A stretch of 32,417 nt of DNA from Chloroflexota bacterium. GTDB lineage: Bacteria; Chloroflexota; Anaerolineae; Anaerolineales; Villigracilaceae. Of the stretch, positions 2,611 to 10,741 are shown in pieces. Location of the stretch: contig VGNE01000043.1 in NCBI GenBank assembly GCA_016866215.1, forward strand, positions 1 through 32,417. The letters run 5' to 3'. A program made the position numbers and the translations under genes. Numbering within the stretch: the first letter of the stretch is position 1; each line of letters starts with the position of its first letter. The notes beneath the pieces were generated by a model. That model did no database searches, was not told where the DNA came from, and worked only from the letters and a program-made list of their open reading frames with translations.

Positions 2611-3093
2611 ATGGATAAATCAGAAGACAAGCAACTTGGCCGCCGTAATTTCATGAAGGTTGCAATCGCTGGTATTGGCGGGTTGATCGGCGCAGCGCTT
2701 GGCTTGCCGGCAATTCCCTACATCATGGGACCTGCGCTCCAGAAAGAAAGCGATGATTGGATCCAACTTGGCTCCATCAGCAAGGTGGAGCTCAATATTC
2801 CCACACTCTTCAAAAAAACGATAGAAACCCAAACCGGCTGGATCAATACCGAGGAGGAGATCTCGGCTTACGTGTTAACCTCCAATGGGCAGGATTATGT
2901 TGTGATGTCCAACGTATGCACGCATCTGGCTTGCAGGGTGCGCTGGATCCCGGAAAAGGACAGTTTCTTCTGCCCATGCCATAATGGGGTTTTTGCAAAA
3001 GATGGCACTGTCGTGGCTGGACCCCCGCCCCGTCCTCTTGATCGCTTTGAGAGCAAGGTGGAAGATGGGGTAATCTTTATAAAGCGAGGTTGA
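2611..3093 (+). CDS. Rieske [2Fe-2S] protein of a cytochrome bc/b6f complex
   Basis: A 160-residue protein. The N-terminus has a GRRNFMK twin-arginine-type motif (10-16) followed by a hydrophobic helix (17-40) that is probably retained as the membrane anchor. The cluster-binding boxes are CTHLAC (103-108) and CPCHNG (121-126). Cys103, His105, Cys121 and His124 are the expected ligands, and Cys108/Cys123 form the disulfide. The Pro-rich GPPPRPL segment (138-143) matches the Rieske proline loop. It carries electrons from quinol to a c-type heme. An AGGAAAAG site precedes the ATG, and the next gene starts one base after the stop. Confidence 0.93.
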   Translation: MDKSEDKQLGRRNFMKVAIAGIGGLIGAALGLPAIPYIMGPALQKESDDWIQLGSISKVELNIPTLFKKTIETQTGWINTEEEISAYVLTSNGQDYVVMSNVCTHLACRVRWIPEKDSFFCPCHNGVFAKDGTVVAGPPPRPLDRFESKVEDGVIFIKRG

Positions 3094-3094
3094 G

Positions 3095-3754
3095 ATGTTG
3101 GTAAAAATTGGCGACTGGCTGGATGAACGGTTCTCCTGGCGTGAGGTGTGGGAGGCGGTCTTCATGCGTAAAGTTCCGCATGTCAATTGGTTCTACACGC
3201 TTGGAAGCGCCACTCTTTTCGTGGCAATTATGCAGGGGGTTACAGGCATATTGCTAACTCTCTATTACGTCCCTACGCCTGATCATGCCTATGACAGCGT
3301 GGTTTACATAACCACCCAGCTGCCATTTGGCTGGTTGATCCGCGGCTTGCATCATTGGGGAGCCAGCGCAACGGTGGTTCTGACGGTCCTTCATCTGTTG
3401 CGTGTGTTCTATTTCGGCGCGTATAAGTATCCACGCGAAGCGACCTGGATCACCGGCGTGATCCTGCTCCTGGTCGTCATTGGTTTTGGCTTCACCGGCT
3501 ACCTGCTGCCCTGGGATCAGAAATCGTTTTGGGCCACCACGGTGGGAACCCAAATTGCGGGGCTGGCCCCGTTTGTTGGAGATTGGATCCTGCGTATCGC
3601 GCGAGGCGGTCGGGATATTTCAGCTGTCACGCTGGCGCGCTTTTTCGGCACCCACGTATGGATATTGCCCGCCACACTCGCGGCATTGATTGGCATCCAT
3701 CTATACCTTGTCATTCGCATCGGCATTACCGCCGTGCCAAAAAAGGATGAGTGA
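3095..3754 (+). CDS. petB: Cytochrome b6-type subunit (N-terminal half of cytochrome b)
   Basis: 219 residues, about the length of cytochrome b6, with four membrane helices. The heme b ligands fall at His86, His100, His187 and His202, the same numbers and the same 14-residue spacing (187-202) as in plastid cytochrome b6. The quinone-site GFTGYLLPWDQ (132-142) is present. Residue 35, the Cys that binds the extra heme ci in cytochrome b6, is Thr here (FYTLG at 33-37). The gene sits between the Rieske gene (1-base gap) and the subunit IV fusion (3-base gap), as in petCBD-like operons. Confidence 0.93.
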   Translation: MLVKIGDWLDERFSWREVWEAVFMRKVPHVNWFYTLGSATLFVAIMQGVTGILLTLYYVPTPDHAYDSVVYITTQLPFGWLIRGLHHWGASATVVLTVLHLLRVFYFGAYKYPREATWITGVILLLVVIGFGFTGYLLPWDQKSFWATTVGTQIAGLAPFVGDWILRIARGGRDISAVTLARFFGTHVWILPATLAALIGIHLYLVIRIGITAVPKKDE

Positions 3755-3757
3755 GCC

Positions 3758-5872
3758 ATGAATGAACAGGAAAAAAAGAAATATCTGGACGAATATAAAA
3801 AGGAAAAAGAAAAGGGTGTGCCATTTTTCCCCGATATCATTTTCAAAGATACGATTGCCGCTCTTTTGATATTCATCATTCTGGCTGCCCTGGCATATTT
3901 TGTTGGCGCTCCGCTTGAAGCCCGCGCAAACCCAGCCGACACCACCTATACGCCGCGCCCGGAATGGTACTTTCTCTTCCTCTTCCAGGCGCTTAAATAT
4001 TTTCCCGGTAAACTGGAAGTGATCGGCGCGATGGTGCTTCCCGGGCTTTTCATCCTGCTCCTGATTCTATTGCCTTTTATTGATAGAAGCCCAAAGCGGC
4101 ACTTTCTAAATCGGCCTTTTGCCAGCATCTCTGCGTTCGTGGTGGTTGCAGGCATCCTCTTTTTGACCATCGCCTCAGTTCGAGAGGCTCCCCCGCCGCA
4201 AGAGGCAATTGTAGTGGATAACGCTGCCGCGCTCTACGCTGCAAATTGCGCGAATTGCCATGGGCCCGGCATTGACGTCCCGCCTGGAACGGATTTGCAT
4301 CAAATCATTGCCGCGGGTACGCATGAGGGTATGCCGGCATGGGGAGGCGATCTTAGCACGGATGAAATAGATGCGCTGGCTGGCTTTATTCTCTCGCCAA
4401 AGGGCAGCGCTCTTTTTACCCAATATTGCTCTGTTTGCCATCAGCAACCTGTAATTGCCAGCGGTAACCCGGTTGAATTGCAGCGCGTATTTGACGAAGG
4501 TGTAAACTATCCGCCTCATAAAGATGTCCAGACTGCAAACTGGAACGAGACGGTGACGGAGGCCGAGATCAACGGGCTGCTTAACTTCCTTGCCGCGCCG
4601 GATGGACAGCGCCTGTTTGTTATCAATTGCTCTGGTTGCCATGGACAAGGCGTGGGGTATAACGGCACAGAAGAAGAACTTACGGAGCTGATCAAAAAAG
4701 GCGGTCAGCACCTGGATATGCCTGCATGGAAAGGCACCCTCAGTGAAAAAGATATGGATGCCTTGAGTTCTTATGTTGTGGATCCGGGACAGAATCCTGG
4801 CGGGGGGACTCTATTCGGGCAGCATTGCGCCAGTTGTCACGGAGATAAAGTCCCGAAAGCGCCTGATAAGCAAAGCGCCCTAAAGATCATTTCTTCGGGT
4901 GGGGCTCACATCACAATGCCTGTGTGGGGGGATATTCTCACCGCTGAACAACTTGATGCGCTTGTAAAATACACGTTTGAGGCAAGCAAAGGCGGCGGCC
5001 CTGCAGTTGGAGCAAACTTATTTGCGGAAAATTGCAGCGATTGTCATGGGAAATCCGGACAAGGAGGACCAAATCCAGCTCTGTCTGGCGATACCATCGC
5101 CCCGATAAGCTCTAGCGAATATTTAAAGACTCGCAACGACGCCACCATTCGGAACATCATCTCATTTGGGCAACCCGATTTTGGCATGTCGCCCTTTGGC
5201 GCTGAAAACGGTGGACCTCTTGATGATGATCAGTTGGATGCAATTGTGGCATTCATACGAAACTGGGAATCCAACCCGCCGGCCGAAGCGCCATCGGCAA
5301 GCGCCGATGTTCAAGTTCCGACTCCAACCGTTGCCCAGCCCAGCTTGACCGGTGCGCAATTGTTTGGCATTGCATGTGCCAGTTGCCATGGTTCCTCAGG
5401 AGAGGGAGGCGTGGGACCTGCCTTCAACATAAAGGAATTCCAGAGTGGGCGTGACGATCAGGCATTGTTCGCCACGATCAGCAACGGTCACACTGCGACA
5501 CCCATGGTTGCCTGGGGTGATAATCTCTCTTTTAGCCAGATCGAATTACTGGTTGGATTCATTCGAACATTGGACCCCGATTATGCGGCTTCGCTGATCT
5601 ACTCTGGCAGGGTAAGCGCCATCTTCGAAGAAAATTGCCAGGCATGTCATAACCCGCAAAAGATACGCGGGGGCTGGGACTCAACTTCCTATCAATCTTC
5701 TATGACCAGCGGCGACAACGCACCAGTGATCATCCCCGGCAATGCCGCAGACAGCCTCCTTGCCCAGAGTATTTTGGGACTAGGCTCCCAGATGCCTCCA
5801 ATCGGATCTCTATCTCCATCGGATATACAGGTAATCCTGGATTGGATTGCGGCTGGCGCACCAGAAAACTAA
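3758..5872 (+). CDS. Subunit IV (cytochrome b C-terminal) fused to seven cytochrome c domains
   Basis: A 704-residue fusion. Residues 1-25 are a charged Lys/Glu-rich cytoplasmic segment. Residues 30-140 carry three hydrophobic helices and the quinol-oxidation motif PEWY (68-71), so this part equals PetD/subunit IV. The rest is periplasmic, with seven CxxCH sites at 164, 224, 291, 357, 426, 540 and 627. Most are class I-like domains of about 65-110 residues with a downstream Met (MPAW, MPVW). The last (about 615-704) resembles the planctomycete-type cytochrome c domain ending DWIAAGAPEN. A Pro/Ala linker (about 506-530) separates domains five and six. Ordinary subunit IV is about 160 residues with no heme c. 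The fusion probably replaces cytochrome f/c1 and forms a heme wire. Confidence 0.9.
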   Translation: MNEQEKKKYLDEYKKEKEKGVPFFPDIIFKDTIAALLIFIILAALAYFVGAPLEARANPADTTYTPRPEWYFLFLFQALKYFPGKLEVIGAMVLPGLFILLLILLPFIDRSPKRHFLNRPFASISAFVVVAGILFLTIASVREAPPPQEAIVVDNAAALYAANCANCHGPGIDVPPGTDLHQIIAAGTHEGMPAWGGDLSTDEIDALAGFILSPKGSALFTQYCSVCHQQPVIASGNPVELQRVFDEGVNYPPHKDVQTANWNETVTEAEINGLLNFLAAPDGQRLFVINCSGCHGQGVGYNGTEEELTELIKKGGQHLDMPAWKGTLSEKDMDALSSYVVDPGQNPGGGTLFGQHCASCHGDKVPKAPDKQSALKIISSGGAHITMPVWGDILTAEQLDALVKYTFEASKGGGPAVGANLFAENCSDCHGKSGQGGPNPALSGDTIAPISSSEYLKTRNDATIRNIISFGQPDFGMSPFGAENGGPLDDDQLDAIVAFIRNWESNPPAEAPSASADVQVPTPTVAQPSLTGAQLFGIACASCHGSSGEGGVGPAFNIKEFQSGRDDQALFATISNGHTATPMVAWGDNLSFSQIELLVGFIRTLDPDYAASLIYSGRVSAIFEENCQACHNPQKIRGGWDSTSYQSSMTSGDNAPVIIPGNAADSLLAQSILGLGSQMPPIGSLSPSDIQVILDWIAAGAPEN

Positions 5873-5885
5873 ACAGGATCAAAGT

Positions 5886-7577
5886 ATGACAAAATTTCGC
5901 CACAAACTTCGCAACTTCCTATTTCCACCACACGGCTCCTCGCGTTGGATGTATATCATCCCTTACGCAATATTGAGTGTGTTCATCGTTTCGCTATTTG
6001 TAAGCGGGGCGTATGTTTGGGACTATACCAATTCCCCGGCATTCTGCGGGACCACCTGCCATACCATGCCTCCTGAGTACGCGGCTTATCAGATATCGCC
6101 TCATGCGCGCATTGCCTGTGTTGAATGTCACATCGGCCGCGAATTCATTGGCAACCAGATCTTCCGCAAAGCGGGAGATATGAGGCACGTGTTTGCCACT
6201 CTCTTCGAGACATACGAATACCCGATCCGCGTCAAGAACATGCGCCCGGCACCTGAGATCTGCGAAAAATGCCACTCGCCTGAAAAATTCTCTGATGATA
6301 GTTTGCGAGTCATCACTCACTATAGTAAGGATGTGTCAGCCTATAACATATACCTGATCCTCAAAACAGGCGGAGGCGCAAAACGCGAGGGGTTGGGGCG
6401 CGGAATTCATTGGCATATTGAGAATACCATCTATTACTATCCGACGGATGAAGAGGCGCAGACCATCCCTTACGTGAAAGTGATCCAGGATGACGGTTCA
6501 AGTGTTGAATATGTGGATGTGGAAGCCGACTTTGACCCTGCCTCCATGGACGAGAGTCAACTCAGGCAAATGGATTGCATCACCTGCCATAACCGCATCA
6601 CGCACCGCGTCTATACACCGGAAGAATCCCTTGATAACGCCTTCACCCTGGGTAAAATCGCCAAAGATATACCCGGCATTTACCAAAAAGGAATTGAAGT
6701 CTTGCGCGGCGAATATACCTCCCAGGAAGAGGGCCTGAATGCAATCGGCGAATTGGAACCCTACTACAAAAACGTATTTCCAGAGTATTACTCGTCCAAT
6801 TCCGAAAAGATCAAACAAGCGATAGAAGTTTTGCGGAAAATTTTCGCTGATTCCGTCTTCCTCGAACAGAAAGTGGATTGGGACTCTCATCCCACGAACG
6901 TCGGTCATACCAACTCGCCGGGGTGTTTTCGCTGTCACGATGGCAAACATTTGAACGCTGAGAATGAAGCGATTCGCCTTGAATGTAACCTGTGTCACTC
7001 CATCCCTGTGGTGTCCGGCCCTGAGGATTTCCTGACCAACATCGAGATCAGCCGCGGGCTCGAACCTGAAACACACCTCAACCCGAACTGGATCGCGATG
7101 CACAACCAGGCCATCGGGCCTTCGTGTTCGAACTGCCATACCACCGGGGACCCCGGCGGCACAAGTAATACATCCTTCTGTTCCAACAGCGCCTGCCATG
7201 GAAGTGTATTCACTTTCGCAGGCTTCGATGCGCCCGCCCTGCGCGAGATCATCAAAAGCCAATTGCCGCCACCGGAACCTGAACCGGAAGTCCCTGCGCT
7301 AACAGGCGCCCCAACTTACGATAACTACATTGGCATCCTTTTCACCGTCAAATGCACAGGTTGCCATATCGAAGGCGATGCGGCGCCGAATGGGCTTGAC
7401 CTGTCGACCTACGCCGCCGCAATGAAGGGCAGTGAAAATGGCACGGTCATTATCCCTGGCGATTCTGCGAATAGCCTGTTAATTCAGGTCCAGTCTGCAG
7501 ATCACTTCACCAAATTCACCGCCGTAGAACTCAACAACGTCATCCGATGGATTGATGCGGGTGCGGCGGAGAAATGA
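5886..7577 (+). CDS. NapC/NirT-like multiheme cytochrome c with C-terminal PSCyt1-like domain
   Basis: 563 residues from the ATG at 5886, chosen because an AGGATCAAAG site precedes it; an in-frame ATG at 5847 would overlap the previous gene. One membrane helix (22-44) is followed by the NapC/NrfH-like SPAFCGTTCHTMPPEY segment. Canonical CxxCH sites lie at 78, 126, 231, 347, 367, 414 and 490. Two atypical ones are CX3CH at 54-59 and CX4CH at 432-438. The C-terminal about 85 residues (from PTYDNYIGILF) look like a planctomycete-type cytochrome c domain related to the last domain of the upstream gene. It is last in the operon, and a terminator follows. It is likely to pass electrons from quinol or the b6-type complex to periplasmic partners. 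Confidence 0.85.
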   Translation: MTKFRHKLRNFLFPPHGSSRWMYIIPYAILSVFIVSLFVSGAYVWDYTNSPAFCGTTCHTMPPEYAAYQISPHARIACVECHIGREFIGNQIFRKAGDMRHVFATLFETYEYPIRVKNMRPAPEICEKCHSPEKFSDDSLRVITHYSKDVSAYNIYLILKTGGGAKREGLGRGIHWHIENTIYYYPTDEEAQTIPYVKVIQDDGSSVEYVDVEADFDPASMDESQLRQMDCITCHNRITHRVYTPEESLDNAFTLGKIAKDIPGIYQKGIEVLRGEYTSQEEGLNAIGELEPYYKNVFPEYYSSNSEKIKQAIEVLRKIFADSVFLEQKVDWDSHPTNVGHTNSPGCFRCHDGKHLNAENEAIRLECNLCHSIPVVSGPEDFLTNIEISRGLEPETHLNPNWIAMHNQAIGPSCSNCHTTGDPGGTSNTSFCSNSACHGSVFTFAGFDAPALREIIKSQLPPPEPEPEVPALTGAPTYDNYIGILFTVKCTGCHIEGDAAPNGLDLSTYAAAMKGSENGTVIIPGDSANSLLIQVQSADHFTKFTAVELNNVIRWIDAGAAEK

Positions 7578-7715: not shown

Positions 7716-8978
7716 CTACGCCCTCACAGTTTCGTCCGCTGTTACACGCACAGTCTGATGGGTTTCACTTGTCAAACGATGATCCACCACTCGCAGGTAT
7801 TTCACGCCAAGCGAAAAAGCCAGCAGACCATAGGCGATGATGCCAATGCCTGTCACCCATTCCACAAGAGACGGGGTGTAACTCGCGTAGGTTACCGTTG
7901 TCTGACCGGGCAGGTATGAGATCACTGTCAGTAAGCCGACGAGATTGGTATCGAAACGCATGGCAACCACACCACCCACGATCATCACCATGGCCAGCAT
8001 CCGCCAGAAGGGAGCTGAACGCAGGGGTCGGTAGAGCAGGATAACGGTCGGAAGAAGCGCGCCTAAGATCATCTCGCCGAACCAGAAGTTGAAGGAGAGA
8101 GTCCCTCTGGTGAGAATTTCAAATGCTTCGGTGCGTCCGGGTTCGTAGGTGTAGGTTTGAGCAAGCCAGTCCCAAAAGCGGAAGTATAGATAGCCGATCA
8201 TCATATAGCCCAGGAATTGCGCAACGCGCTCGATGAGAATATCATTTACTTTGGCTTTTGGGGTCAACCTTGCAGAAAACATGGACGCAAGCAAGGTGAG
8301 CGCAATGCCGCCGACGATGGCCGAAAACATGAACACGACAGCCATTTCAGGTTTGTACCAAATGGGCCGCGCTTTGATCACGCCATACATTGCGCCAAGC
8401 GAGGATTGATGCAGGCTGGAAAGCCCGAGGCCGATGATGGCAAGCACAGGCGCATAGTGATGAACTTTTTCCATTTTTTCTGTAATGCGCGGATATTTTT
8501 TTCGAAGCCATTCCAAGGATGCGAGGATGGGCATGGTCTCAAGGACAAGCACTGTCAGGTAAAGGATCACGCACATGGTCACTTCCCACATCAGGGAGTG
8601 TGTATTCCAATATACAAGCGCTTTCCAAAAACGGTCGGGGCGGCCAATATCCAAAACAAGCGCCAGCATGGCCATGGTGTAACCGATGAGTCCCACAAAT
8701 GTGGCTGTGCGCGCAATGGGGGCATAGCGTTTGAGTCCGAAGAGATAGACACCCACGCACAAACTGAATGCGCCCGCGCTCAGCGCAATGGCGGAGAGAT
8801 CAAGGGTGATCCATAAACCCCACGGTACCAGATCGGTCAGGTTGGTGATGACCAGTCCTTTCCAGAAGACCAGAAGCCCGCCGACCAAAGCGCTGAACAG
8901 GATCATGCCAAGCAAGGCAAGCCATAGACCCCAGGCGGTAAAGATATTTTCGCGAATCGTTTTGAGGATGGATTTCAT
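7716..8978 (-). CDS. NrfD/HybB-family quinone-interacting membrane subunit
   Basis: 420 residues from the ATG at 8978; the longer frame to 9062 overlaps the ferredoxin gene, while a GGAGAG site sits just before 8978. About ten hydrophobic helices are visible. Typical family segments are VPWGLWITLDL near the start, LDIGRPDRFW and LSSLHQSSLGAMYGV, the last characteristic of the HybB/NrfD subfamily. These proteins carry no heme and exchange electrons between menaquinol and a ferredoxin-like subunit. The start lies one base after the ferredoxin stop, so the two are translationally coupled. It is last of the five-gene - strand operon. Confidence 0.92.
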   Translation of the reverse strand: MKSILKTIRENIFTAWGLWLALLGMILFSALVGGLLVFWKGLVITNLTDLVPWGLWITLDLSAIALSAGAFSLCVGVYLFGLKRYAPIARTATFVGLIGYTMAMLALVLDIGRPDRFWKALVYWNTHSLMWEVTMCVILYLTVLVLETMPILASLEWLRKKYPRITEKMEKVHHYAPVLAIIGLGLSSLHQSSLGAMYGVIKARPIWYKPEMAVVFMFSAIVGGIALTLLASMFSARLTPKAKVNDILIERVAQFLGYMMIGYLYFRFWDWLAQTYTYEPGRTEAFEILTRGTLSFNFWFGEMILGALLPTVILLYRPLRSAPFWRMLAMVMIVGGVVAMRFDTNLVGLLTVISYLPGQTTVTYASYTPSLVEWVTGIGIIAYGLLAFSLGVKYLRVVDHRLTSETHQTVRVTADETVRA

Positions 8979-8979
8979 A

Positions 8980-9765
8980 TTAACTCTCCGTCTCAACTTT
9001 GCGGACAGGCACAACGCCGGCTGGCAAATAATACACACGACAGCCCGTGCCCAAATTTTCACGCAAACGATAGGATGGATATTTCTTCAAGAGCTGGCTG
9101 ACATTTGAATTCGGGTCATTGAGATCTCCGAGTACGCGCGCGCCCGTGGGGCAGACCACACAACAGGAGGGGGTCGCTTCATCGTCCACACCAGGGGCGA
9201 GACCCAGCGCGAGACCGCGGTCAATGCGCTGATAGCAAAATGAGCATTTCTCCGGCACACCGCGTGGACGCCGTTCCACTTCAGGAGCGCCCCATTCAGG
9301 CACGGCAGGATTTTCACCTTCGAAGGCTTCCCAATTGAAGGAACGCGCTTCATACGGGCAGGCGATCTGGCAGTACCGGCAGCCAATGCACTTGTCGTAA
9401 TCCATCATCACGATTCCGTCGTCGCGGTAATAGGATGCGCCCACCGGGCAGACCTCCACACACGGGGCATGTTCACAGTGCATACAGGGGCGTGGAAGAT
9501 AGGTCATTCTGCCATCCAGCATGCCTGTGCTGGTTACCTTGTTCCACTCAATATCAGGGTTGACATCATTGCGAGCCTGGCAGGCCAGCGTACAATATCC
9601 ACAGCCTGTGCAGTTGGACTGGTCAATGACCATGGCCCACTGACGCTCGCCTTTCGCATCTTCGGATGCGTCCGCCTTTGTGATGGCACGTGTACCTGCG
9701 GCGACTGCAAGCCCGACAGCGGTAAGTTTTATAAAGTCGCGGCGGCTGATATTCTGATCATTCAT
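8980..9765 (-). CDS. Periplasmic ferredoxin with four [4Fe-4S] sites (NrfC/HybA/DsrO type)
   Basis: 261 residues from the ATG at 9765, which has a GAGGAGG site six bases upstream; a GTG at 9771 abuts that site and is a poorer start. A twin-arginine signal (SRRDFIKL, 7-14) indicates export folded. Cysteine groups lie at 52/55/58/62, 94/97/102/106, 126/129/132/136 and 174/177/201 or 202/205, enough for four cubane clusters. It is the electron carrier between the NrfD-like membrane subunit and the multiheme cytochrome. The start overlaps the end of the octaheme gene by eight bases. Confidence 0.93.
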   Translation of the reverse strand: MNDQNISRRDFIKLTAVGLAVAAGTRAITKADASEDAKGERQWAMVIDQSNCTGCGYCTLACQARNDVNPDIEWNKVTSTGMLDGRMTYLPRPCMHCEHAPCVEVCPVGASYYRDDGIVMMDYDKCIGCRYCQIACPYEARSFNWEAFEGENPAVPEWGAPEVERRPRGVPEKCSFCYQRIDRGLALGLAPGVDDEATPSCCVVCPTGARVLGDLNDPNSNVSQLLKKYPSYRLRENLGTGCRVYYLPAGVVPVRKVETES

Positions 9766-10741
9766 TTTCACCCTCCTCAGGCTGCTGATGCTTTACCTCG
9801 CGGCGATAAAATCTCTCGAGCCATGGCGCCAGCACAATGCCGCCTGCCAGACCTAAAAGCCCGGCAAGACCCGCATATCCCATCGGGCTGACGGGAGTCG
9901 GCTCAGGTGTTATTTCCACGACAGGTACAGCCTCTGGAACAACCGCATTTGCAACTGGGATCGTTTCACCTGTGCTGACAGCCTCCGCACTGGAATGCAT
10001 CTGGGCTGAATGGCAGGTATTGCAGGTTTGCAAACTGGCTTTGAACGAGTGATCTGAAACTGAGTGTGGGGCATAATCGGTTGCTTCAAGATGCTCCAGG
10101 TGGCAATCAACACAAGAGACGCCTTTCTGATGGTGCAGGGTGTATGGAAATTCCATGCTCGCTTCATGATGGCAGTTAATGCACAGTTGCGACACATCGT
10201 TATAACCGGAAGCATCGCGGACAATCGTGAACTTCAAGGAAGCGCTGTGCGGATCGTGGCAGGTGGTGCATTCCATACCCCGCTGATAATGTGTACTGCC
10301 CTGCCAATCCTGCCAGCCAAAACGCGTATCACTATGGCAGCGTCCGCACAGGTCCGGGCTGGTATCTGTTGAGATCGTCGTCTTGGGATGCTCCCCGCCC
10401 TCATCCACGTGGCAGGCCGAACAGCTGATATCGGCAGATTCCCATGTGGCAGTCGCGGGATCATACCCAGTGGTATGGCAAACTAGGCACGCGCCTGGCT
10501 TGCCCTGACTCTCCCAATCTGCAAGAAACACGGGGTCAGTTCCAGATTTGCCATGCGAGCCGTTCATCCACTTCATTTGAAATTCAGTATGGCAAACGGC
10601 GCAGTCGTCATTACTGCCGCTGGCTTGCTGATCCACAGGCGGGGTAACTCCCTCTTGCGCCTCCACCGCCATCAATGTAATCCCCGCAAATATCAGGGCG
10701 AAGGTCAAAGCGATCATTATCCGATTGAACCAGGAAAACAT
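9758..10741 (-). CDS. Eight-heme cytochrome c with C-terminal membrane anchor
   Basis: 327 residues: signal sequence (about 5-28), eight CxxCH sites at 47, 85, 107, 132, 158, 187, 210 and 240, an Ala/Pro/Val-rich linker (255-285) and one membrane helix (about 287-307) with a short charged cytoplasmic tail. The CHDPHS and CHHEA segments are typical of NrfB/DmsE-like and octaheme electron-transfer proteins; there is no obvious catalytic site. The AAGGAGATGCAAAC leader gives a strong start at 10741. With the ferredoxin and NrfD genes it forms a multiheme-FeS-NrfD module resembling part of Nrf, Qrc or alternative complex III systems. No molybdopterin subunit lies nearby. Confidence 0.9.
   Translation of the reverse strand: MFSWFNRIMIALTFALIFAGITLMAVEAQEGVTPPVDQQASGSNDDCAVCHTEFQMKWMNGSHGKSGTDPVFLADWESQGKPGACLVCHTTGYDPATATWESADISCSACHVDEGGEHPKTTISTDTSPDLCGRCHSDTRFGWQDWQGSTHYQRGMECTTCHDPHSASLKFTIVRDASGYNDVSQLCINCHHEASMEFPYTLHHQKGVSCVDCHLEHLEATDYAPHSVSDHSFKASLQTCNTCHSAQMHSSAEAVSTGETIPVANAVVPEAVPVVEITPEPTPVSPMGYAGLAGLLGLAGGIVLAPWLERFYRREVKHQQPEEGENE

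Follow-up and report, generated by a model that had tools for sequence, protein, structure and literature searches.

The locus and the subunit IV fusion

The stretch of DNA analysed here (the window) comprises 32,417 nucleotides of contig VGNE01000043.1 from a Chloroflexota genome, and its element of interest is a three-gene Rieske/cytochrome b complex at positions 2611-5872, in which subunit IV continues, in the same reading frame, into seven cytochrome c domains (D1 to D7). The source genome is 3.74 Mb in size, 97% complete and available as a draft in 128 contigs. A first-pass annotation of the letters alone had described a Rieske protein, a cytochrome b6 and a 704-residue subunit IV with a PEWY motif and seven CxxCH sites; Pfam and reading of the open reading frames (ORFs) recover all of them, as follows (aa, amino acids).

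2611-3093, + strand: Rieske [2Fe-2S] protein, 160 aa (PF00355, E 9.5e-10)
3095-3754, + strand: cytochrome b6-type subunit, 219 aa (PF00033, E 1.6e-50; PetB alignment)
3758-5872, + strand: 704-aa fusion of subunit IV with seven cytochrome c domains (ORF, Pfam and alignment)
3758-4192, + strand: subunit IV part, residues 1-145 (PF00032 at residues 57-148; hydropathy)
4247-4261, + strand: D1 heme motif, residue 164; probable distal Met192 (30/31), with His189 also invariant
4427-4441, + strand: D2 heme motif, residue 224; no conserved Met, His254 in 31/31, probable bis-His heme
4628-4642, + strand: D3 heme motif, residue 291; probable distal Met321 (31/31)
4826-4840, + strand: D4 heme motif, residue 357; probable distal Met387 (30/31), with His384 also invariant
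5033-5047, + strand: D5 heme motif, residue 426; probable distal Met477 (31/31); domain common to diheme proteins, cytochrome c6-like fold
5375-5389, + strand: D6 heme motif, residue 540; probable distal Met583 (31/31)
5636-5650, + strand: D7 heme motif, residue 627; probable distal Met679 (31/31); PSCyt1 type, common to diheme proteins

The Rieske protein carries both cluster boxes, CTHLAC and CPCHNG, and by hydropathy a single, N-terminal membrane helix. No in-frame stop interrupts the 704-residue frame, in which PEWY occupies residues 68-71 and three hydrophobic segments all lie before residue 146. Pfam assigns residues 57-148 to PF00032 (Cytochrom_B_C), followed by six stretches of PF13442 (Cytochrome_CBB3) and a last domain, PSCyt1, at residues 627-681. 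From composition alone, 0.009 CxxCH motifs would be expected in the 564-residue tail against the seven observed, and every one of its 14 cysteines falls within such a motif. In an alignment of 31 out of 36 proteins of this kind, which also underlies the fractions given above, the CxxCH of all seven domains is invariant. Judged by position in that alignment, six of the domains are probably Met-ligated and D2 is probably bis-His.

Conservation of the fusion across genomes

A contig search whose query was an alignment of four relatives yielded 40 loci, of which 35 (L057-L091), each from another genome, match along the arm; the rest comprise mono- or diheme relatives from other phyla (L092-L095) and a subunit IV part with masked bases (L096). 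PEWY and seven CxxCH stand in one frame at 29 of the 35. The remaining six show eight CxxCH (L089), six (L063, L084) or four or five (L082, L085, L088), the frame ending at the contig end in L082 and L085 and being broken in L088. Spacing within the 29 is tight: the first five motifs lie exactly 96, 156, 223, 289 and 358 residues from PEWY in 23 proteins and are shifted by at most 4 residues in the other six.

A misassembly or a missed stop that ran two genes, one for subunit IV and one for a multiheme protein, into each other is the artefact that a draft in 128 contigs might be suspected of, and the first-pass annotation had named it as the finding that would undo its proposal. It is refuted by recurrence, since the same uninterrupted fusion is found in 29 of the 35 separate genome records, in proteins about 45-87% identical, and retains next to no probability.

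By record title, 34 of the 35 loci belong to Chloroflexota, and 15 of these titles specify Anaerolineae or one of its subgroups; the remaining locus comes from an Actinomycetota metagenome-assembled genome (L083). The heptaheme complex of that record (8001-10091) is 48% identical, and either transfer or mis-binning could account for its label. Within the genus of the window genome the arm occurs in 5 of 57 species genomes, being the sole PF00032 match in three of the five and accompanied by another in two. A D1-D4 profile run over a sample of 400 genomes of the phylum matched only the window's own genome, in a scan that scored at most six candidates per genome and may therefore have missed some. 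Such a patchy distribution suggests transfer or loss.

Core chemistry and class of the complex

The Rieske boxes, the b-heme His pairs and the Qo motif are all kept, which places the complex in the Rieske/cytochrome b superfamily (complex III). Its b6 aligns with PetB over about 209 residues, and the b-heme His pairs show H-13-H and H-14-H spacing; the H-14-H spacing, in the last b6 helix, is a b6-type trait. At the position where PetB has its heme c_n cysteine, the window b6 has Thr35. The same position holds Thr in 30, Ala in one and a gap in one of 32 seven-heme rows (two of which repeat loci L062 and L081), and Thr in 33 and a gap in one of 34 diheme rows, two of them from Elusimicrobia.

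Among the known classes, b6f is approached by the split cytochrome b with a three-helix PEWY subunit IV and by the H-14-H spacing. Cytochrome f (PF01333) and the heme c_n cysteine are missing, so strictly speaking the complex falls outside the b6f class. The label "b6f-like" given to it earlier applies to the split gene layout alone, the b6-like core being without the heme c_n cysteine. Cytochrome b is encoded in two genes and not as the single chain of the mitochondrial bc1 type. With the QcrABC type the complex shares an in-frame cytochrome c-subunit IV fusion clustered with Rieske and b6 genes, yet the c part of that type is mono- or diheme and here there are seven CxxCH. From the anammox and Nitrospina type it differs in that the multiheme c is fused in one frame and is not a separate subunit. 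It is therefore best classed among Rieske/cytochrome b complexes with a split cytochrome b and a fused subunit IV.

The statement that no separate cytochrome f or c1 gene is present stands in its first half: across the whole draft genome no PF01333 match exceeds the cut-off, one sub-threshold match lying in a 1434-aa frame. For c1 the statement reaches as far as the nine neighbourhood proteins scanned, none of which belongs to cytochrome f or c1 families; PF02167 was not searched genome-wide. A heptaheme tail in place of cytochrome f, as had been proposed, is supported and is conserved across genomes. The premise that a normal subunit IV has no heme c needs narrowing: subunit IV-cytochrome c fusions are known from Bacillus QcrC, and 32 of the 40 subunit IV proteins examined in the class are diheme. 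The novelty is the number and layout of the hemes, the fusion itself being already known.

Relation to diheme and other subunit IV proteins

A class-level search of 298 genomes with the 704-aa protein gave matches in 41 at E 1e-30, and the subunit IV frame was examined in 40 of these; in the 41st, G048, the match lies in other c-domain proteins only. After PEWY the 40 proteins carry two CxxCH in 32 genomes, one in three, four in one, seven in three (the window genome, G057 and G241) and eight in one (G150), the 32 diheme open frames being 337-678 aa long. Tandem arrays occur in other proteins as well: L103, L104 (G048) and L105 (G177) have four to five tandem cytochrome c domains matching the D5-D6 part, and the array of L103 is joined to flavin/4Fe-4S-like parts, where a sixth CxxCH is located.

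Profiles of D1 to D7 were run on the c domains of 20 chosen proteins (15 diheme, three monoheme, one tetraheme and one octaheme). The first c domain of all 14 Chloroflexota diheme proteins scored best with D5 (76-139 bits); the second scored best with D7 in 12 of the 14 (56-107 bits) and with D6 in L007 and L032. L092, from Elusimicrobia, and the monoheme and tetraheme proteins matched D6 or D3 best, at lower scores (13-54 bits). In the octaheme protein the domains run from D1 to D6, then an extra D6-like domain, then D7. By these domain-profile matches, D1-D4 sit between the membrane anchor and D5, and D6 sits between D5 and D7, so that the heptaheme protein looks like a diheme protein (D5 and D7) with D1-D4 and D6 added. 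Its first heme motif stands 96 residues after PEWY, compared with 102-107 residues in 23 of the 32 diheme proteins.

A tree built from 72 rows of b6 plus subunit IV unites 33 multiheme rows in a supported clade (96/93) and places the octaheme L089 beside the diheme clade; a single multiheme clade is not rejected by the approximately unbiased test (p 0.49). Since the rows outside the multiheme clade carry one, two or four hemes, the tree, for which no root was inferred, may lean towards gain of domains rather than their loss in the diheme line.

Structure predictions

For the whole protein, modelled with AlphaFold2 on the 31-row alignment and without its partner subunits, the mean predicted local distance difference test score (pLDDT) is 73.5 and the predicted template modelling score (pTM) 0.41; the single domains are plausible as modelled, and the arrangement of the whole protein is uncertain. 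The D5 model aligns with cytochrome c6 at Z of about 12 over 80-odd residues, and D6 with small cytochromes c at Z up to 13. Modelled alone and without hemes, D1-D4 reaches pLDDT 81.4 and pTM 0.66, which suggests a compact four-heme block more than four beads that move freely. Foldseek returned no match to this block at E <= 0.001; its D3-D4 part aligns with CcoP-type chains only at a root-mean-square deviation near 10, and its single domains align with cytochrome c6 at Z up to 9.

Neighbouring genes and the rest of the genome

Gene order in the window runs from a nine-CxxCH cytochrome through a b561-type cytochrome b, the Rieske protein, b6 and the fusion to a NirT/NrfH-like multiheme cytochrome. 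The genes flanking the complex are these.

500-1666, + strand: multiheme cytochrome c, 388 aa, nine CxxCH; recurring neighbour
1663-2520, + strand: b561/formate-dehydrogenase-gamma-type cytochrome b, 285 aa (PF01292); recurring neighbour
5886-7577, + strand: NapC/NirT-NrfH-type multiheme membrane-anchored cytochrome, 563 aa, with a C-terminal PSCyt1 domain (PF03264, PSCyt1)

The core of this arrangement is stable. A b6 was found at all 35 loci, its match ending 5-14 bases ahead of the fusion gene in 34 of them (in L063 it is truncated), and a Rieske protein at 33, the other two loci beginning at a contig end. A NirT-like protein aligned over at least 250 aa is present at 21 of the 35, within 2.7 kb at 20 and 7.1 kb off at one, and a piece cut by the contig end occurs at three more (L057, L063, L074). 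The b561-type cytochrome b lies near 14 loci and the nine-heme cytochrome near 12. These neighbour counts are lower bounds; flanks differ and some contigs are short.

The NirT-like protein of the window scores under the cut-off of the NrfH model, and its heme motifs comprise CX3CH at residue 54 (the first), CX4CH at 432 and seven CxxCH. Upstream of the complex in L062, positions 5-1111 hold four tandem pieces like its C-terminal PSCyt1 part. Beyond the NirT-like gene, on the opposite strand of the window (7716-10741), lies a gene set of NrfD, 4Fe-4S and an eight-CxxCH cytochrome, an Nrf-like quinone module; NrfD genes occur near six and 4Fe-4S genes near nine of the 35 related loci.

Elsewhere in the window genome, whose single PF00032 match is the fusion gene, several matches were considered and rejected as parts of a second complex. 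The other PF00033 match (contig C13) combines a cytochrome b half with ferredoxin-like motifs and is without the PEWY half: it is a 684-aa protein (L097, 5786-7840) with the N-terminal half of cytochrome b and two 4Fe-4S-like motifs, and a heme-copper oxidase (PF00115) is encoded nearby. The further Rieske matches are a 131-aa frame, whose surroundings were not read, and an orphan with Ser for the Cys of box II. This orphan (L113, contig C96, 5107-5613) has SPCHNG as its second box, one cluster Cys apparently having been lost, and adjoins a NirK-like multicopper enzyme and a cupredoxin-like protein, as recognised by reading, without a family scan. The complex in the window is thus the only complete Rieske/cytochrome b complex found in this genome, where alternative complex III was not searched for. 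The genome also encodes a caa3-type oxidase, on other contigs than the fusion locus, whose subunit II bears a cytochrome c domain.

Proposed mechanism and alternative explanations

Complexes of the Rieske/cytochrome b superfamily carry out bifurcated quinol oxidation at the Qo site, with Rieske movement and a Q cycle. The window complex probably oxidises menaquinol in a Q cycle and has, in place of cytochrome f/c1, a multi-heme arm of its own. Quinol, most probably menaquinol, would be oxidised at the PEWY site; one electron would pass over the b hemes to the inner quinone site, as the Q cycle requires, and the other would pass from the Rieske cluster to the fused c arm. Entry would most likely be at D1, since this domain adjoins the last membrane helix, as does the first heme (D5) of most diheme relatives. 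With hemes loaded at all seven sites, the electron could then move from D1-D4 to D5-D7 within the same chain, and D5-D7, being the part common to diheme relatives, would be the likely docking and output end toward periplasmic acceptors. Candidate acceptors include the caa3 oxidase, cupredoxin/NirK-type enzymes and the adjoining NirT/NrfH-like multiheme protein; synteny favours the last as a possible partner, and genome content favours the caa3 oxidase. The role of a wire, earlier assigned to the tail, is plausible as a hypothesis. A bolder version, in which complex III donates directly to redox partners that are large or lie outside the cell and dispenses with diffusible cytochrome c by way of a fixed intramolecular relay, including a low-potential bis-His D2, into the NirT/NrfH-like protein and across the envelope, would be quite improbable.

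Several observations weigh against the menaquinol-oxidising complex with a directed arm. The pTM of 0.41 for the whole model is accompanied by block pLDDT of 43-50 over residues 51-80, which include PEWY. The ligand call is positional, and the invariant His189 of D1 and His384 of D4 stand three residues ahead of the respective Met. The first heme lies 170-182 residues past PEWY in nine of the diheme proteins, each of them from the family to which the window belongs, so the position of D1 is not shared by every relative. The NirT-like partner was not found at 14 of the 35 loci; some of these are cut short, but around L059, L069 and L087 the sequence extends for 8 kb in each direction. The complex also frequently shares its genome with another cytochrome b of this sort: one or more additional PF00033 matches turned up in 32 of the 37 genomes that have it (those of L057-L091 and L096 and the window's own).

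Two other explanations of the arm deserve weighing. The protein might be a functional equivalent of the diheme complex, in which two domains work and the extra ones are a tolerated expansion or an electron buffer with no directed path. The diheme form is indeed the commoner one among the class genomes sampled (32 of the 40 examined, against three heptaheme proteins and one octaheme), and congeneric genomes encode a shorter subunit IV protein in its place; D5-D7 is common to 12 of the 14 diheme proteins tested, and similar c-domain arrays vary in number elsewhere in the phylum (L103-L105). Free expansion should drift, however, and the motifs, spacing and candidate ligands of D1-D4 are kept as strictly as those of D5-D7, with the first five motif offsets identical in 23 of 29 proteins and the D2 His in all 31, which leaves this explanation unlikely. 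Somewhat less unlikely is that the arm, as a structural and electronic tether, keeps the complex joined to the NirT/NrfH-like protein or to the caa3 oxidase in a supercomplex and replaces diffusible cytochrome c. The frequency of the NirT-like gene (at 21 of 35 loci, and no farther than 2.7 kb away at 20) fits such a tether, as does the resemblance of its C-terminal PSCyt1 domain to D7; weak fold matches include the diheme subunit of mycobacterial III2IV2 supercomplexes, and supercomplexes of this type are reported to function without soluble cytochrome c (PMC4505504). Against it stand the location of the oxidase genes on other contigs and the 14 loci with no NirT-like match of at least 250 aa. 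The menaquinol-oxidising complex with its on-board arm accordingly keeps the preference.

Comparison with known systems

The QcrC fusion of Bacillus is probably C-terminal and has one c domain, compared with seven here. In the excerpts of PMC3475470 available, the Bacillus QcrABC menaquinol:cytochrome c reductase has the same parts as the window complex, namely a Rieske protein, a b6-type subunit and, in QcrC, subunit IV fused to a periplasmic cytochrome c; these excerpts place the fusion at the N-terminus. The diheme complexes of the class likewise keep Rieske, b6 and fusion together, share D5 and D7 by homology in 12 of 14 cases and have Thr at the c_n position; they differ in having two hemes, no D1-D4 and usually no D6.

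In the anammox complexes Kustd1480-1485 and Kuste4569-4574, a b6-like core and a subunit IV are combined with multiheme c in place of cytochrome f, as here. The passages seen of PMC12954380 describe their hexa- or octaheme c as a separate protein, subunit IV as having five helices, heme c_n as kept and an NAD(P) oxidoreductase as present, all unlike the window complex. The b6f-like operon of Nitrospina resembles it in a split b and an adjoining multiheme c, yet the octaheme cytochrome c has its own gene (PMC3578206, in part); the same excerpts give the c subunit of such complexes as usually mono- or diheme and sometimes tetraheme. Geobacter ExtOPQ with ExtKL/M/N/S offers a Rieske protein, a 23-kDa cytochrome b, a 17-kDa membrane protein and multiheme cytochromes, the multihemes being separate proteins (PMC5877670, passages seen). 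From its size and the gene order we infer that ExtQ is subunit IV; the window b6 scores 216.5 bits with the ExtP model, below the cut-off of 290.

No report of a heptaheme subunit IV fusion appeared among the matches listed, which comprised titles, abstracts and text passages and covered few subscription papers, and a search combining Rieske, cytochrome b6 and heptaheme gave no literature match. The accessible text of a Chloroflexi genome paper mentions PetAB complexes and multihemes and contains no fusion (PMC3971608), and the passages seen of PMC5317091, PMC13053071 and PMC8756737 describe none.

The cytochrome c part is the least conserved element of complex III (PMC3578206, excerpts), and the anammox authors do not find it entirely clear why so many hemes are needed (PMC12954380, passages seen). 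The fusion bears on the route by which electrons leave the Rieske protein when the partner is multiheme: with the multiheme part covalently tied to subunit IV, stoichiometry is set by the sequence and the path of the electrons can be tested within a single chain. Comparison with the diheme proteins further suggests that the c part of complex III may grow or shrink by whole domains between the membrane anchor and a shared end. Where its relatives have one or two c domains, or a separate multiheme protein, this complex has seven predicted heme domains built in, and appears to be a conserved variant of an energy-conserving machine.

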